DNA from: a virus
IMG/VR virus record: IMGVR_UViG_3300025592_000789
Location: 1 to 63,280 of that record
Strand: one strand, 5' to 3'
DNA length: 63,280 bases
Shown here: positions 40,677 through 48,726 of the stretch, piece by piece
Layout of the letters: the number at the start of each line of letters is the position of its first letter
Numbering within the stretch: the first letter of the stretch is position 1
Position numbers and translations under genes: made by a program
Notes under the pieces: model-generated
What the model was told of the DNA's origin: nothing
The model's database searches: none
What the model saw: only the letters and a program-made list of their open reading frames with translations

Positions 40677-40710
40677 GGGGGAGAAGCAAATTGCTTCTCT
40701 CCCTTATTTT
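40677..40710 (+). terminator. Rho-independent terminator after the reductase gene
   Basis: GGGGGAGAAGC (40677-40687) pairs with GCTTCTCTCCC (40693-40703) with one G-T pair; the loop is AAATT and its flanks. TTATTTTT follows. A weaker terminator-like hairpin at 40646-40663 precedes it. Confidence 0.8.
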
Positions 40711-40738: not shown

Positions 40739-41110
40739 ATGCATGAACTAAAAATTCGTTACATCAAGTGCAAAAAGTGTGACCACATTCATTATATTGA
40801 AACATGTGTTAGGGATCAGAACCCTTCCTGTTTCAAATGTGGCCACTCAGAGTTTACTTCAAAGTTAACCAAGCAGGACCTGTTTGAAGCTCGCAGATCT
40901 CCTCAGAACTGTGTTTGCAACCAAGCACTACAGGCAGAGCTTGAAGAAACTACCAGAAATATAGCTATTACTTTGCATAAGAAGTATCAGGGTGCAGAGC
41001 TAATTAAAGCTATCGCAGACACTATGATGGCGTGCATTAATTCAACTAGACAAAACGCTGTGCAATTAGCAGGCCCTTTCTTTAATAATCAAACCGATAA
41101 TAATAAATGA
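40739..41110 (+). CDS. Unassigned zinc-ribbon protein
   Basis: 123 residues from ATG 40739; AAGGA lies 13 nt upstream, and the longer frame from 40691 begins inside the terminator. A zinc ribbon 'CKKC' (about 12-15) and 'CFKC' (about 32-35) is followed by 'CVCN' and a helical half with no motif I recognise. It could bind nucleic acid or a protein partner. It is the first gene after the terminator, leading into the operon that ends with the ubiquitin-like genes. Confidence 0.6.
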   Translation: MHELKIRYIKCKKCDHIHYIETCVRDQNPSCFKCGHSEFTSKLTKQDLFEARRSPQNCVCNQALQAELEETTRNIAITLHKKYQGAELIKAIADTMMACINSTRQNAVQLAGPFFNNQTDNNK

Positions 41111-41472
41111 ACGATAAAGATTTTTTAAACATTGGAGTAGGACGCTCCAATAAGACAGTAACAGTCATAAATATTGACCAAGAAGAAGTTAATTTACCGA
41201 GTGGTCCTAGCAGTAAAGCCATTTTTACAGTCCGCGATGCAGAAGGAAGAGAGTTCAAGATTAGTGACCTTCTTCTAGAGGATCGTGGAGAATCTAAAAA
41301 AGCAGGACTTTGGATCAATATAAATGACGATGGAGAACTATCCAGTTATACTGGGTTAGCGAAATTAATTAAATTCTACGAAGTTAACTCATTACAGGAA
41401 TTAATAGGTAAAGAGGTAAACGCAGATAATGACGATAATGGATTCTTAGTACTAAGTATCCTTAAAAACTAA
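41107..41472 (+). CDS. Unassigned small protein
   Basis: 121 residues, acidic and beta-rich, with strands such as 'KTVTVINIDQEEV' and 'KAIFTVRDAEGREF' that would fit an OB- or SH3-like barrel. No known motif. It overlaps the zinc-ribbon gene by 4 nt (ATGA), so the two are probably co-translated. Confidence 0.55.
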   Translation: MNDKDFLNIGVGRSNKTVTVINIDQEEVNLPSGPSSKAIFTVRDAEGREFKISDLLLEDRGESKKAGLWININDDGELSSYTGLAKLIKFYEVNSLQELIGKEVNADNDDNGFLVLSILKN

Positions 41473-41491: not shown

Positions 41492-43870
41492 ATGAGAATA
41501 CCGTCCGGTAGATTAAAAGTAATAAACGCATTATATGATCTAGGATTTGAAGAAGCAGACTATGACTTACTTAAAAAGACCTCGTTTAAGTTTAAGTCAA
41601 GCCCAGTATTACAGTCTGGGGATAGTAGTTTAAGAAGTCATATAGGGTTTTTATTTAATACAGGAAAAATGTTAGCTTACCATCAGTTTTTACTGGATAA
41701 TGACTATAACTTTACTTCACAGGGTGACGTAACAACTGCTATAGCTAATTACGATTGGGCAAAAGAAATTAATCAAGACATAGGTGAACTTTTTGAAACT
41801 TTGCCAGAAGAGCAAGTTAAAAGTATAAATAAGATGATACCTAAAGGAAAGATAAAATTCTTTTATTCATTGACAAAGACTAATAACTATGGAAGTAACT
41901 GTCCTATTATTACTGATAAAGACACCTTTATTATTGATTCATTAAAGGATACAGATCTAGCTGATCTTGAAAAGATAAGTAAAATTCAAGAACGATTCTC
42001 CAGTTATAACTCATTTCTAGATAGAAACAGAGGGTACGGAGAGAACAATAATAAATTTCAGTTATTGGGTACCTGTCATTTTAGTAATGCACAGGTTGCT
42101 CTATCTTATACAAAAAACTTTTATTTTGGCAAAGACTCAACTCTGCCAATAAATAGTTTTGGTAATTGGCTCTTAAGCAGCAGGCGTGGATATAATTCTA
42201 ACGCTTCTGGATTAAAGATAAATGAGATAGATTTATTTTTAAAAGAATCTTATACAACAAACTTTGATAAGATTACTACTAAAGAGCCTACTCCTGAGCA
42301 ACTAGAGTTATTAAAAGAAAATAACAAGTTTAGATACATACATTCAGTATATGAACATCATAACACTAGATATTGTGTAGTCGGTAGCTCAAGTACATTT
42401 CCTTATTACAACACTCCACGAATTCATAACGCAGCAGAATTTTGTGCAGGAGATTACTTTAGTTGGTTTAAAGTAGAAGCAACTAGTTCTTGGTATGACT
42501 ACGCTGATGCTGGACACTTAGTATATTACAAGCTTGGTCCTGATGGTACTGTGGCAAATAGAGGTAATGATGACCCATTACTAACGCTGGGTGAAGCTGT
42601 ATTAACAGACCCTGCCCCGGTTATGCTTAATAAAGTAATAATCGAAAATTATCTAAAGACAAAGGCTAGTGAAGATAGAGTTGTTGTTTTAGATAATGGT
42701 ACTTTGAATACTATCTTGAGACTGCACATGAAAAAAGAAGAACGCACTCAAAAAGTAGTTCAAAGTAAAAACATAATGACTAAGAAGATAACCAAAGTTA
42801 TTAATAATTTAGAAACAATAAAGAAAACTAAATTAAACGGTATTGATATAACTGAGGACTCTATTAGTTACGCAGGACAAACACTTTCTATTGATAAGAA
42901 TACCTATACAGGGCACGACAGATGGCTTAATGATGTATTTGATAAGATGTTAAGAAACACAGATCCTAATTCCATTGACTGGGATCTTGTTTACGCAACA
43001 TTTTTAAGTTATTTAAGTCTGGGTAGTAAGAGCACCGCTGGTACAATAGGTAACGTTAATTTTAATCTTGAGATAAAATCATCCACCTCTACAAGAGGTG
43101 TGACCTCTACAAGATACTACATTAATGAAAATCGTATTAATAAGAATGAAGTTGATGAATGTCTCGAGCGAGCTTTGTGCTTTGAGACCCAGGAGGACTT
43201 CGATTATTTCCTAGACTCGGTTAGAAAATGTTCGTTAAAATTACATAAATTACTGCACCGTGGTATTAATATTAGTGGAGTAAGTGATGTAATGGGGTCA
43301 TCTCCAGGACATAATAATTACAATCAATTCTCTATAAAATTCCCGATTACTAGAAAAGGTCGTACAACCTCTATGGTTCTAGATGGGAACTCATACAGAA
43401 TTCGTAATACAAATAGATTCTTGACAATATCAAATAAAAGAAGTATTTTAGATGTGGTAGATCTACTACTTAATGAAAAAATAGTAGAGGGTGTAACCGT
43501 AGACGATGTTAAAGATATTATAACTGCTGGACGAAAAGCTTATGTTGAAGCTTTAAAGAAGAGTCAGGAACTACTAACTGACACCATTAAGTTATTTAAA
43601 TTAACAGAGGAAACAAAAGACACCACTAGAGGAAGAGTCAAAGGGTATAAAATAAAAGGCAAAATAAGAACTTACTTTGTTGAAAAAGGATCATTAGAGC
43701 CTGACTCTAATAATCACAATGATTGCAAGGTCTTTGACTACAATTCTGGAAAGTATATTTGTATTGTTGATAAAGGAAATGCTGCTCAAGTTGGTATGGA
43801 TAGGCTAGTAAATAGATTATATGCACTACACAACGATGACTTAGTAGCAAAAGAAATAACTACACTTTAA
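41492..43870 (+). CDS. Large unassigned protein upstream of the ubiquitin-like genes
   Basis: 792 residues, family not recognised. No P-loop, HD, protease or nuclease motif is evident. It is mixed alpha/beta with several cysteines (for example CHF, CVV, CAG, CLERALC) and a basic, lysine-rich C-terminal third (GRVKGYKIKGKIRTYFVEKG). No ubiquitin-conjugating E2 signature is apparent. It precedes the ubiquitin-like gene by 15 nt with an AGAG site between, so it is likely part of the same operon. It could be a substrate, scaffold or a divergent E2/E3-type partner of that system, or unrelated; position is the only support. Confidence 0.6.
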   Translation: MRIPSGRLKVINALYDLGFEEADYDLLKKTSFKFKSSPVLQSGDSSLRSHIGFLFNTGKMLAYHQFLLDNDYNFTSQGDVTTAIANYDWAKEINQDIGELFETLPEEQVKSINKMIPKGKIKFFYSLTKTNNYGSNCPIITDKDTFIIDSLKDTDLADLEKISKIQERFSSYNSFLDRNRGYGENNNKFQLLGTCHFSNAQVALSYTKNFYFGKDSTLPINSFGNWLLSSRRGYNSNASGLKINEIDLFLKESYTTNFDKITTKEPTPEQLELLKENNKFRYIHSVYEHHNTRYCVVGSSSTFPYYNTPRIHNAAEFCAGDYFSWFKVEATSSWYDYADAGHLVYYKLGPDGTVANRGNDDPLLTLGEAVLTDPAPVMLNKVIIENYLKTKASEDRVVVLDNGTLNTILRLHMKKEERTQKVVQSKNIMTKKITKVINNLETIKKTKLNGIDITEDSISYAGQTLSIDKNTYTGHDRWLNDVFDKMLRNTDPNSIDWDLVYATFLSYLSLGSKSTAGTIGNVNFNLEIKSSTSTRGVTSTRYYINENRINKNEVDECLERALCFETQEDFDYFLDSVRKCSLKLHKLLHRGINISGVSDVMGSSPGHNNYNQFSIKFPITRKGRTTSMVLDGNSYRIRNTNRFLTISNKRSILDVVDLLLNEKIVEGVTVDDVKDIITAGRKAYVEALKKSQELLTDTIKLFKLTEETKDTTRGRVKGYKIKGKIRTYFVEKGSLEPDSNNHNDCKVFDYNSGKYICIVDKGNAAQVGMDRLVNRLYALHNDDLVAKEITTL

Positions 43871-43885
43871 ATAAAGAGAAAAACT

Positions 43886-44110
43886 ATGGCAAAAGAAAAA
43901 GAAATCACATTAAAGATCGTATCCGCTGAAGGTCACACAGAGTTTCAAGGCACTGGTGCAGAGGCCCTTGCAGAGTTGCAAGAGCAATGCACAAACAACA
44001 GTAAGTGGGCTTATGTAGATGGCCGTCAGGTTAATCCTGACACTGTGGGCATTGAAGATCTTTTAAATGCTGAAGACATCACTTTAGCTAACACACTAAT
44101 TGGTGGCTAA
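43886..44110 (+). CDS. Ubiquitin-like modifier protein ending in Gly-Gly
   Basis: 74 residues. The composition and order of secondary structure fit a beta-grasp fold: strand 'EITLKIVSA', strand 'HTEFQGTG', a helix 'AEALAELQEQC', strand 'KWAYVDGRQV' and a final strand leading to 'LANTLIGG'. Translation stops directly after Gly73-Gly74, so the modifier end is exposed without processing. The next gene's ATG overlaps the stop (TAATG), and the downstream genes encode a JAMM protease and an E1-like enzyme. The protein could be conjugated to targets or carry sulfur as a ThiS/MoaD-type thiocarboxylate. The fold is inferred; the GG tail and gene order are seen. Confidence 0.78.
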   Translation: MAKEKEITLKIVSAEGHTEFQGTGAEALAELQEQCTNNSKWAYVDGRQVNPDTVGIEDLLNAEDITLANTLIGG

Positions 44111-44565
44111 TGGAAGTTTTCATTACTCCTGAGATAGTTCAGGAGTTAAAAATATATGGCGATTCAAGCCCCGTGCACGAGGTGTGCGGGGCTTTTATCG
44201 GCACTAAAATCAAAAACGAATGGCACATAGAAAAGTTTATACCACTTACCAATGTAATAGCAGGACTCAATGGTAAAGAAGATTACCAGCCTCACCCAGA
44301 AGAATGGTTAAATGTTATAAAAGAGACCACTCATTATAACGATGATGCTAAGTATGATTTTATAGGGGTGTACCATACACATCCTAATAACAAACCATAT
44401 CCCTCAATAACAGACGTTCGAGAGGCCGGTTATAAGGGAATATACATTATATATTCTCCTAAATATAAGACCTTTGGTGTTTACTATTATAATGGTGATC
44501 GGGAACATCTTATGTGGGTACCAGCTATATGTCATGACATAGATGAAAGAGAACTAGTAACTTGA
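44110..44565 (+). CDS. JAMM/JAB-domain metalloprotease (deubiquitinase-like)
   Basis: 151 residues. The JAMM zinc motif is complete: Glu24 (HEVCGAFIG), His89-x-His91-Pro (YHTHPNN), Ser99 and Asp102 (H-x-H-x7-S-x2-D). It is a single-domain form without the NlpC/P60 domain of lambda gpK, and not fused to any tail gene. Members cleave isopeptide bonds after a C-terminal Gly-Gly, or release an amino acid from a sulfur-carrier protein (Mec+ type). Because the adjacent modifier already ends in GG, the likely job is to release it from conjugates. It overlaps the modifier and E1 genes. Confidence 0.88.
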   Translation: MEVFITPEIVQELKIYGDSSPVHEVCGAFIGTKIKNEWHIEKFIPLTNVIAGLNGKEDYQPHPEEWLNVIKETTHYNDDAKYDFIGVYHTHPNNKPYPSITDVREAGYKGIYIIYSPKYKTFGVYYYNGDREHLMWVPAICHDIDERELVT

Positions 44566-45158
44566 AAAAAATATTAATTGTAGGTGCTGGTGGAATAGGA
44601 AGTTGGCTTGCTGCTAATTTATACGACTTAATTTGTTGGGAACAATTACCTGACAGTAACGTAGAAATAACTATAGCAGACGATGACCACGTAGAAGCAA
44701 AAAATATTTCTTATCAAAATTTTGAAGACGAAGATATAATGGACCCTAAAGCAGCAGTATTACATGCTAGATATGGGTTTAAAGCTTTAGAAAAAAGAAT
44801 TACAGATGAAAGAGATTTATACGGATATGATTGTATTGTAAGTGCCGTGGACAACCCAAAGTTCAGGCGGCTCTTATTTGAATATTGTCATGTTTATAGT
44901 CGAACCCATTGGATCGATTTAAGATCAGAAGGTAGAACAATAGCTGCCTTTACTACATCTGAAAAGAATACTTTGGAAAAAATGTTAGATACATTAGGTC
45001 CAGAGGATGCGGAAGATGGAAGTTGTCAGCTACAGTTTGAGCTAGATAATGATATCATCCAACAAGGAAATAAAATTGTGGCTGTGATAGGATCTCAGTA
45101 TATCCTTAATTGGCATAGATTTGACACTAGTCCACCCGTATTTTCTTTTAATTTTTAA
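44562..45158 (+). CDS. ThiF/E1-like ubiquitin-like modifier-activating enzyme
   Basis: 198 residues, a minimal adenylation domain. Rossmann loop 'GAGGIG' (8-13), 'ADDDHVEAKNISYQNF' (39-54, the usual D-D-x-V-x-x-x-N-x-x-x-Q) and 'IVSAVDN' (92-98, with the conserved Asp), then 'GSCQ' with Cys155, the candidate thioester or persulfide cysteine. The Arg expected in the N-x-x-R-Q motif is Tyr51. It lacks a zinc-binding CxxC pair and a C-terminal rhodanese or ubiquitin-fold domain. It would adenylate the Gly-Gly end of the 74-residue protein. It overlaps the JAMM stop by 4 nt; a promoter follows the gene. Confidence 0.87.
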   Translation: MKKILIVGAGGIGSWLAANLYDLICWEQLPDSNVEITIADDDHVEAKNISYQNFEDEDIMDPKAAVLHARYGFKALEKRITDERDLYGYDCIVSAVDNPKFRRLLFEYCHVYSRTHWIDLRSEGRTIAAFTTSEKNTLEKMLDTLGPEDAEDGSCQLQFELDNDIIQQGNKIVAVIGSQYILNWHRFDTSPPVFSFNF

Positions 45159-45159
45159 C

Positions 45160-45188
45160 TTGACTAATCAAGTATAATATACTATATT
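45160..45188 (+). promoter_or_regulatory. Promoter for the holin-like gene
   Basis: TTGACT (45160-45165), 17 bp, TATATT (45183-45188). The leader to the ATG at 45258 is about 60 nt and includes a GGAA site 9 nt before the ATG. Confidence 0.7.
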
Positions 45189-46426: not shown

Positions 46427-48726
46427 ATGTTTATTTCAAAACCAGAAGATGTGCCAATAGTAGAGAGGTTTATAAAAACTAGAGGTATAATCGGGTATGA
46501 TGTAGAAACTAATGGACTAGATCCTCATACGAATGAAGTACTTCTAATACAAATAGGCACCGAGCATACTCAGTATGTACTAGATGTTGCGAGACTTGGT
46601 ACTAGTATATTTCCTGTTCTAGAATTACTAGCAAAGCCTGATACTGCTAAAGTAGCACACAACTCTAAGTTTGACTATGTTATGACCAGGGCTAATTTTG
46701 ACATTGATCTTTTAAATATGAAAGACACATTATTAGCAGATTACTTGTTGACACAGGGTAAAAACATACCAAAACATAGTTTTGACGCAGTAGTAGATAA
46801 ATATCTTGGAGAGACTGTCTCTAAGGATTTACAGAAAAGCTTCGTAGGTATGAAGTTTGGTGATCAATTTTCAGAGGAACAAATTAAGTATGCTGGTGAT
46901 GACGTTAAATACTTATTACCGCTGCATACTAAATTGGACAAGTTTATCAGACAAAGAGATATGAGTAAACTAGCCCATTTAGAAAATTCTACTGTGCGGG
47001 CTACGGCTGAGTTAGAATTGAATGGTATACACTTAGATAGAAAAAGATGGCTTGCCTTAAAAGATATAGCATTAAAGGCCGCTATTGATTTAAAGGTTGA
47101 GCTGGATGAAGCGTTCGCTCCACACTGCTCAGTAGATCTTTTTGGGTCACCTACGGTAAATTATGATTCTCCTAAACAAATGTTGGAATTATTGCCTAAG
47201 ATATGTAATGTAACATTAACCTCTACTAATAAACAAGAACTTGAAAAACAAAATCATGCAGTAATTAAACTATTACTAGAGTACAGAAAACGAAAGAAAT
47301 TAGTTACTACATACGGACAGGAATTTCTAGATAATAATGTAAACTCTGTAACAGGTAGAGTTCATTCTAGTTTCTGGCAATTAGGTAACACAGACTCTGG
47401 TAGATATGCCAGTACCAAACCTAATATGCAGAATATACCAGCAGGTGCTGTATATCGTGCTGCTTTTACAGCACAAGATCTAGACTATAGAATAGTCGCA
47501 GCGGACTTCGCAAATCAGGAACTTAGACTACTAGCTCATATGAGTGAAGAAGATAAGTTTATTGAATGTTTGAGAACTGGAAAAGATTTGCATGCCTACT
47601 GTGCCGCTATCCTGTTCAATAGAAACTATGATAGTATTACTAAAGAAGAGCGTGATGCCGCTAAAGCCATCAATTTCGGTATGAATAATGAATAAAATAA
47701 ATAATGCCGAAAACAAACTCGCCAAATTCGGGGAAACCTCAGCACATAATGGTGGTGGCAATCCCGAGCTAAGCCTGAAGAAGCAGGAAAGTGTAGAGAC
47801 TAGACGACGAGTATGTAAAAAGTGTGACAATGTACTTCCAAAACGTAGACAAAAATTCTGTTCAGATAAATGTAGAAACGCATTTAACTCTCACGCGTGG
47901 AGAATTAAAAAAGGTTTAATTAAAAAACCATATAGTGGTTCTGGTGGTAATCAATCAGGAAAAGATAACCACATGTATAAAAACGGAATAAGAAATTTTA
48001 GTTTACGGGCTTTTGAATATTATGGTAAAACTTGTAATCGATGTGAGTCAGAAAAAAATATCCTGACTCATCATAAAGATCATAATCGACAAAATAATAA
48101 TATAGAAAATTTAGAAGTTCTATGTAAGAAATGTCATCAAAAACACCATTGCACACGAGACCAAGTAACAGGTCGTTACATAAAGGGATAGTCCGGGCCT
48201 CTGGTAAACCAGAGGGTTCCTGGTTATTTACGGAATGGGTGCTAAGAGATTATCAGCTGTTCTAAAAATTTCAATACCTGAAGCATCTGGCTTATTAAGA
48301 TCTTACTTCTTAACCTTCCCTAAAATCGCTAAACTAATTAAAGATTTTACCGACAGTGCAGAAGATTTAAGATACGCATTTAGCCCGCTTGATGGTAGAC
48401 GAAGAGATTTAAGTTCAATGGATTTTGATAATCCAAAACATCATAGCCATGCTATGAACATTGCTAAAAACTTACCATTCCAGGGTACTGGTTCTAGTGT
48501 TACTAAACGAGCTTTATGGAAAACGAGTGAATCAATTAGAGATAACAAATATGATGCTATGATAATCAACGCAGTTCACGACGAAATTTTATTAGAAGTA
48601 CATAAGGATGAAGTTGATGAAGTCGCGGGCATGTTATCATTAGAAATGATAAAAGCGTTTAATCATTATGCTCCGTCAGTGCCTATGGAAGTAGAACCTG
48701 TGATCGGAGACTGTTGGATTCACTAA
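46427..48726 (+). CDS. polA: Family A DNA polymerase, interrupted by a group I intron (exons 46427-47680 and 48223-48726)
   Basis: Exon 1 (418 codons) and exon 2 (167 codons plus stop) join at 47680^48223 to give 585 residues. The N-terminal DEDD exonuclease has 'YDVETNGLDP' (Asp25, Glu27). Polymerase motif A 'AADFANQELRLL' (~360) is in exon 1. The intron splits motif B, restoring 'RDAAKAINFG|VIYGMGAKRL' on splicing. Motif C 'AVHDEILLEV' is in exon 2. There is no 5'-3' exonuclease domain, as in T7 and SPO1 polymerases. The gene starts at 46427 immediately after the sigma gene stop. This is the phage replicative polymerase. Unspliced RNA would give a truncated protein ending at 47695. Confidence 0.9.
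47681..48222 (+). other. Group I intron in the DNA polymerase gene
   Basis: 542 nt, self-splicing RNA. Exon 1 ends in T (47680) and the intron ends in G (48222), as required. P1: exon TTCGGT (47675-47680) pairs with GCCGAA (47706-47711), including the terminal T-G wobble at the splice site. A P4/P5-like TTCGGGGAAACC is at 47727-47738 with GGCAATCCCGAG at 47757-47768. P7: GACTA (47798-47802) with TAGTC (48189-48193). P9: CCTCTGG/CCAGAGG hairpin at 48198-48215. The core resembles the IA subgroup of phage introns. It carries the HNH endonuclease gene. Confidence 0.87.
47688..48191 (+). CDS. HNH homing endonuclease encoded in the intron
   Basis: 167 residues. A treble-clef-like 'CKKC..KFCSDKC' (about 43-64) is followed by the HNH nuclease 'LTHHKDHNRQNNNIENLEVL' and 'CKKCHQKHH'. 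It would cut an intronless polymerase allele and promote intron spread, as in phage SPO1 (I-HmuI). The first ~40 residues are encoded by intron core sequence and may not be conserved as protein. The ATG (47688) overlaps the end of the unspliced exon 1 frame (stop 47693-47695), so translation may be coupled to unspliced pre-mRNA. No separate ribosome site is seen. The stop codon lies in P7. Confidence 0.85.
   Translation: MNKINNAENKLAKFGETSAHNGGGNPELSLKKQESVETRRRVCKKCDNVLPKRRQKFCSDKCRNAFNSHAWRIKKGLIKKPYSGSGGNQSGKDNHMYKNGIRNFSLRAFEYYGKTCNRCESEKNILTHHKDHNRQNNNIENLEVLCKKCHQKHHCTRDQVTGRYIKG

Follow-up and report, generated by a model that had tools for sequence, protein, structure and literature searches.

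A viral gene cassette for candidate ubiquitin-like protein conjugation in phages and magrovirus-like archaeal viruses

Why would a virus carry, side by side in its own genome, a ubiquitin-like protein, an enzyme expected to activate it and an enzyme expected to remove it? The question is raised by a 63,280-base virus record (the whole of this stretch is called the window below), in which the open reading frames at 43886..45158 encode a ubiquitin-like protein (Ubl), a JAMM metalloprotease and an E1-like enzyme, all on the same strand and overlapping head to tail. A preliminary description of this DNA had proposed a 74-residue protein ending in Gly-Gly followed by a JAMM and a ThiF-type enzyme, and all three reading frames were found where it had placed them. 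The residues it had named as catalytic, E24, H89, H91, S99 and D102 in the JAMM enzyme and GAGGIG and C155 in the E1, were each verified in the sequence. A co-directional gene of 792 codons just upstream of the Ubl, here called BIG, accompanies the triad constantly. The cassette genes all lie on the + strand, and the features of the region are as follows.

40677..40703, + strand: terminator-like stem with 12 base pairs and a T-rich tail behind it, probably the 5' limit of the transcription unit
40739..41110, + strand: small gene with zinc-ribbon-like cysteines, shared with the nearest relatives only
41107..41472, + strand: gene for 121 amino acids with no assigned function, directly 5' of BIG
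41492..43870, + strand: BIG, 792 amino acids, constant partner of the triad, with an AF2 model
43760..43762, + strand: codon for C757 of BIG, the sole cysteine invariant across phage and archaeal-virus BIGs
43886..44110, + strand: Ubl, 74 amino acids, predicted beta-grasp fold with a free C-terminal tail, LIGG
44102..44107, + strand: codons for Gly73-Gly74 of the Ubl, directly before the stop codon, invariant in 30 sequences
44110..44565, + strand: JAMM/JAB metalloprotease, 151 amino acids, with E24, H89, H91, S99 and D102
44374..44415, + strand: core of the JAMM enzyme, HTHPNNKPYPSITD
44562..45158, + strand: E1-like adenylating enzyme, 198 amino acids, TTG start codon
45024..45026, + strand: codon for C155 of the E1 (in G-S-C-Q), candidate catalytic cysteine, invariant in aligned viral E1s
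45160..45188, + strand: promoter-like site TTGACT-17-TATATT ahead of the next, holin-like gene, agreeing with the consensus at 10/12 positions

The operon had originally been drawn as three genes. The triad is borne out, but the transcription unit starts further upstream and takes in BIG at 41492, and the genes from about 40739, on the 3' side of the terminator-like stem, are probably included as well. Terminator-like sites exceed the shuffled expectation in this region (9 found versus 3.8 expected). The listed reading frame of the zinc-ribbon-like gene begins at 40691; a methionine start at 40739, chosen by inspection, is likelier, and it is uncertain whether this gene is part of the system. 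The 121-residue gene precedes BIG in every phage relative whose contig covers that stretch (24 loci). At the gene junctions, the TAATG overlap had been read correctly, but the second overlap is TTGA and not ATGA, the E1 starting with a TTG codon. The promoter described on the 3' side of the cassette does match the consensus, but matches of this kind are no more frequent in the AT-rich region than in shuffled sequence (32 found versus 35.6 expected). Scans with Rfam and for tRNAs found nothing useful. In two close pairs of relatives, dN/dS lies between 0.06 and 0.17 for the Ubl, JAMM and E1 genes, which are therefore under strong purifying selection.

Evidence on the nature of the 74-residue protein comes mainly from its predicted structure. 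An AF2 model built from an alignment of 30 relatives has a mean pLDDT of 85 and the element order beta-beta-alpha-beta-beta-3/10-beta, followed by a low-confidence tail that bears the Gly-Gly. When this model was compared with the PDB by Foldseek, the top 50 matches were mostly SUMO, NEDD8, ubiquitin, the Caldiarchaeum ubiquitin and other ubiquitin-like domains, with probabilities of about 0.9-1.0 and TM-scores of about 0.5 but no E-value below 1e-3; several of these matches are SUMO-tagged or SUMO-fused entries. The prediction of a beta-grasp fold is thus a good one, clear in kind and modest in score. Gly-Gly is invariant in all 30 aligned Ubls, so loss of these residues, which would have spoken against a modifier, was found in none of the relatives examined. 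No family match above cut-off was obtained for the Ubl in Pfam, NCBIfam, PHROGs or PADLOC, a profile search of PDB sequences found nothing, and a weak ThiS match appeared in one of the 30 Ubls (E=0.047). As BIG likewise lacks a Pfam match above cut-off, both proteins are overlooked by current annotation.

The two enzymes are recognised far beyond chance. The JAMM enzyme matches the Prok-JAB family (PF14464, E=1.4e-13) and carries the complete motif E...HxHx(7)SxxD, in which the metal ligands H89, H91 and D102 as well as S99 are invariant across 25 aligned sequences. Its best match is the desampylase model NF041370 (E=6.8e-17, under that model's cut-off). A JAMM scan of cellular genomes found nothing useful. 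The E1 matches ThiF (PF00899, E=1.8e-15), and its profile matches include the E1s of ubiquitin, SUMO and NEDD8, UBA5 and Cap2 in addition to ThiF and MoeB. The aligned viral E1s share the GxGGIG glycines of the nucleotide site, D40, D42, K63, D97, R102 and C155. A tyrosine had been noted in place of the usual arginine of N-x-x-R-Q, and the resulting N-x-x-Y-Q is indeed fixed in the lineage, being present in all aligned viral E1s. The archaeal-virus E1s introduced below were retrieved with the pattern KN[IL]SYQN, so their tyrosine is not independent evidence; the residue was re-checked in phage loci retrieved through BIG instead of the motif, where it holds. A more distant fusion protein, described below, has histidine at this position.

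Whether these genes belong together can be judged from their relatives. There are 23 related phage contigs, all with BIG, Ubl, JAMM and E1 in that order (in one, BIG is cut by the contig end), and searches with BIG and with the E1 recover the same 23. All four genes are present in each of the phage loci found through BIG (L076-L091). Of the 59 loci found through the E1, 44 have the full set of four, among them every locus whose contig extends beyond 5.6 kb on the upstream side of the E1. The Ubl is missing from the other 15, and BIG as well from four of these; in precisely these 15 the available upstream sequence is shorter than 5.6 kb. The three genes of the triad therefore co-occur wherever the contig extends far enough. 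In the phages the cassette sits in a conserved block of nuclease, dUTPase, ribonucleotide reductase, cassette, sigma factor and DNA polymerase, so co-occurrence within this group partly reflects common descent. Cultured phages searched with the Ubl, JAMM and BIG contained no true relative.

In several phages (L079, 9979-10800; L082, 10521-11327; L084 and L085) an extra reading frame of about 270 amino acids, possibly a homing-endonuclease-like insertion, lies between Ubl and JAMM. The family-A DNA polymerase of the window is split into an N-terminal part (46427-47695), an HNH-type reading frame (47688-48191) and a C-terminal part (48235-48726), where the relatives have a single reading frame of about 585-597 amino acids; this looks like an intron or intein-type insertion, and a search for it with Rfam gave no intron match. 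The ribonucleotide reductase, 653 amino acids in the window, reaches 993 in L017 (1692-4670) and 1125 in L021 (1130-4504), probably through inteins or fused reading frames.

Homologues of all four genes were also detected in magrovirus-like archaeal viruses, represented by 48 further E1 loci; those of the Ubl, JAMM and BIG were found by iterated profiles. Neighbouring genes encode TFIIB-like proteins, a thermosome, a clamp loader and an ATP-dependent ligase (some assigned by inspection), which fits magroviruses of Poseidoniales (compare PMC12999244), the host being inferred. This set provides more independent support for the linkage because its gene order differs. The two branches differ at the end of the modifier. 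Phage Ubls terminate exactly at Gly-Gly in 14 of 14 distinct sequences; in the archaeal viruses, Gly-Gly is followed by one or two residues (C, L, Y, Q, NQ, SQ, AY, NC and so on) in 27 of 27, and a JAMM gene is always near. The view that the JAMM enzyme lacks a precursor to process thus holds for the phages and fails for their archaeal-virus relatives, in which, given the residues past Gly-Gly, it probably matures the tag.

The archaeal viruses also encode, between E1 and JAMM, a small Cys/His-rich protein (L025, 8588-8827; L053, 8480-8692; and equivalents) whose C-terminus is GG followed by a single residue (LGGQ, MGGI, MGGA) and which is possibly a second modifier or a substrate. A third group of relatives consists of contigs binned in Aenigmatarchaeota, Omnitrophota and Methanoperedens genomes, which carry BIG and E1; two of these contigs have a Ubl-like reading frame ending in KGG. 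The fusion protein mentioned above is from a contig of a Phycisphaerae MAG (L097, 7367-8970), where a Ubl ending in VGGLC precedes a single fused E1-JAMM protein whose E1 falls near the archaeal-virus branch of the tree, on a long branch. Magrovirus-like cassettes in a bacterial MAG labelled Maricaulis (L096 and L105, genome G005) are an apparent binning error.

The absence of a visible E2 had been remarked on from the start, and BIG is now a candidate, either as an E2-like enzyme or as a target-selecting partner; one profile test is suggestive and a fold search was negative. A C-terminal domain is common to the BIGs of phages and archaeal viruses (hhalign E=8e-7, probability 92), and within it C757 is invariant in 30 aligned phage and archaeal-virus BIGs as well as in 17 phage and related BIGs. 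The cysteine is set in G-x-Y-I-C-I (Y-I-C-I-V-D) in the phages and in G-x-I-C-I-D (G-P-I-C-I-D-N) in the archaeal viruses; this G-x-I-C motif resembles an E2 active site, and a conserved helix follows at E2-like spacing. When the archaeal C-terminus profile was compared with three E2 sequences as a yardstick, the invariant cysteine aligned on the catalytic cysteine and the score of 20.0 exceeded all 150 column shuffles (maximum 18.3). In the same test PRTRC_B, which has been considered E2-like since Iyer et al. 2006 (PMC1779556), scores 23.5, so that the archaeal BIG is similar in strength, but the phage C-terminus scores 9.7, under the shuffle median, and has no E2 signal alone.

The AF2 model of BIG, with a mean pLDDT of 66.6, is moderate overall and poor around C757. 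It has a helix at 670-701, strands at 706-731 and 747-749, C757, and a helix at 769-791, an order (helix, three strands, strand, Cys, helix) that is compatible with a UBC fold. Searched against the PDB with Foldseek, this model, poor as it is near C757, had no match (best probability 0.08), nor did a profile search of PDB sequences confirm an E2 fold. The model does match three viral proteins (E about 3e-6, probability 1.00) whose lengths, 416-452 residues, are those of archaeal-virus BIGs. For BIG no match above cut-off was found in Pfam, NCBIfam, PHROGs or PADLOC, and 295 genomes from a single archaeal phylum, scanned with the BIG C-terminus, yielded the starting genome only. On this evidence, an E2-like activity for BIG is a tentative proposal that falls a little short of an even bet.

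Taken together, these results make it reasonably probable that the cassette is a virus-encoded, reversible system for conjugating a Ubl to proteins. The computation shows the gene set, how constant it is and the conservation of its active sites, and it predicts the fold of the Ubl; the chemical steps and the substrates we infer. The phages would make the Ubl with Gly-Gly already exposed, while in the archaeal-virus branch the first product would be a short precursor, cut back by the JAMM enzyme. The E1-like enzyme would adenylate the Gly-Gly terminus and then hold the Ubl, probably on C155; BIG would take the activated Ubl, most simply on C757, and deliver it to target proteins, whether as an unusual E2-like enzyme or as a target-selecting partner; and the JAMM enzyme would take it off again. 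Viral or host proteins of the replication phase are the likely substrates because the cassette sits in a block of nucleotide and DNA-replication genes. One feature that speaks against conjugation is the E1 tyrosine, which stands where an arginine normally helps bind ATP. A fuller version, in which this is a complete viral conjugation pathway, the C-terminal domain of BIG around Cys757 represents a new class of conjugating enzyme, and the pathway is shared by large tailed phages and magrovirus-like viruses with a ready-made modifier in one branch and a trimmed precursor in the other, is more speculative and in our estimate has perhaps one chance in three or slightly better.

The main rival is a sulfur-carrier pathway, which we consider unlikely. 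Here the E1 would make a Gly-Gly thiocarboxylate, BIG would accept the sulfur and pass it to a nucleoside, tRNA or small molecule, and the JAMM enzyme would free the carrier from its product or trim it. JAMM-trimmed sulfur carriers exist, in CysO/Mec and QbsE/QbsD, and tail trimming by a JAMM enzyme, as in the latter pair, is accordingly found outside conjugation too. ThiF and MoeB are among the profile matches of the E1, and the invariant cysteine of BIG could serve as the acceptor. Against this reading, the E1 lacks a rhodanese domain as well as the CxxC zinc pairs characteristic of enzymes in the sulfur branch, and the immediate neighbours match no sulfur-metabolism family, with no acceptor recognised nearby. 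The fold matches of the Ubl lie with conjugated modifiers, though ThiS and MoaD have the same fold. Several prokaryotic Ubl-JAB-E1 operons have been tied to sulfur metabolism, but thiamine and molybdopterin operons are reported never to carry a JAB gene (Iyer et al., PMC1779556).

A role in counter-defence is improbable in our judgement. The cassette would then modify or block a host Ubl defence such as CBASS Cap2/Cap3, Bil or Bub, for example with the JAMM enzyme stripping host tags and the viral Ubl competing. Antiphage defence based on Ubls does occur in hosts (PMC10097602, PMC13373217), and the JAMM enzyme and E1 weakly match Cap3 and Cap2-type models of CBASS. A full make-and-attach set nevertheless exceeds the needs of a deconjugating antidote, the same cassette, BIG included, has been retained by bacterial and archaeal viruses alike, and it is embedded in a replication block, not in a variable accessory region. 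Least likely is that phages captured a divergent member of the PRTRC or Bil systems, a kinship suggested by the earlier comparison of domain composition. Among NCBIfam models the E1 matches PRTRC_ThiF best, and genuine PRTRC modules exist in cultured phages, yet the match reaches 48 bits against a cut-off of 144.75, comparisons of the Ubl with PRTRC_C and of BIG with PRTRC_B are not significant, and viral and PRTRC E1s form separate clades, divided from each other by supported branches (97/89 and 99/97). PRTRC membership was rejected on these grounds. No ParB-like or PRTRC_E/F gene occurs among the scanned immediate neighbours, the cassette proteins reach no PRTRC, CBASS or desampylase cut-off, and PADLOC returned generic JAB and E1-E2 matches only, its library perhaps not including Bil models.

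The favoured reading, reversible conjugation, can be placed beside systems already described. PRTRC systems comprise the Ubl PRTRC_C, the E2-like PRTRC_B, the JAB PRTRC_A, PRTRC_ThiF, ParB and others. They resemble the cassette in that separate Ubl, JAB and E1 genes lie next to one another on mobile DNA and in an E2-like motif, G-K-[IV]-C, with an invariant cysteine, and they occur in some cultured phages; they differ in that PRTRC_C does not end in Gly-Gly and in that the Ubl and BIG of the window are unrelated to their counterparts by profile. Burkholderia phage BgVeeders33 has a canonical PRTRC module, with A, B, C, F and ThiF over cut-off, and PRTRC-like modules below cut-off are present in Bacillus phage KLEB27-3 and Acinetobacter phage ME3. 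In KLEB27-3 (L010, 39-422), tandem near-identical copies of a PRTRC_C-like Ubl, a possible viral poly-Ubl, lie beside PRTRC_A, PRTRC_B and ThiF genes. Bil, Bub and type II CBASS likewise combine an E1-like enzyme, with or without an E2, and a JAB or other protease, acting on Ubl or target termini, but they are cellular, mostly defensive, and have E1-E2 fusions or a recognised E2 (PMC10097602, PMC13373217), whereas the cassette of the window is wholly viral and BIG is a new family.

The Haloferax SAMP1/UbaA/HvJAMM1 system pairs an E1 and a JAMM enzyme with a Gly-Gly Ubl, and the JAMM enzyme of the window best matches a desampylase; SAMPs, however, double as the sulfur carriers of the cell, have no BIG-like partner and are not viral. 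In crAss001-like phages (Kehishuvirus), a module comprises a Ubl-like N-terminus, a JAB-like protease, ThiF and two unknown genes. Its JAB adjoins the E1, the two being annotated as 'metalloprotease' and 'thiamine biosynthesis protein', and the E1 falls on the same side of the tree as that of the window; the E1 (383 aa) and JAB (411 aa) have extra domains, however, there is no BIG, and the Ubl-like part, judged by eye only, lies within a longer protein. The cultured Kehishuvirus 'tikkala' (L118, 2249-7457), which encodes a JAB-like protease, ThiF and a protein whose N-terminus looks by eye like a beta-grasp, offers a tractable test bed. Finally, a ThiF/MoeB gene has been reported to be among the auxiliary genes that archaeal viruses carry most often, with ubiquitination mentioned as a possibility (RaFAH, PMC8276007). 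It is probably the same E1 as in the magrovirus-like loci; in the available part of that report it is a lone gene, and nothing is said there of partner genes for a Ubl, a JAMM enzyme or BIG, of Gly-Gly tails or of a branch in phages. The present analysis adds the fourth gene, BIG, and a second virus group to the Ubl-JAMM-E1 module, the comparison with earlier work covering open-access papers.

The cassette, common to large phages and to magrovirus-like viruses of ocean archaea, suggests that these viruses chemically tag proteins during infection. In prokaryotes, Ubl conjugation has mostly been known as a housekeeping process or as a defence against viruses. In this case the viruses themselves encode the modifier, the enzyme expected to activate it, the one expected to remove it and a large protein that constantly accompanies them, whether their hosts are bacteria or archaea. 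The contrast between a ready-made Gly-Gly and a Gly-Gly with a short tail provides a natural experiment on the gain or loss of precursor processing by a JAMM enzyme, and BIG may represent a conjugating enzyme of a novel kind. If confirmed, the system would mean that viruses use protein tagging within their own replication programme.
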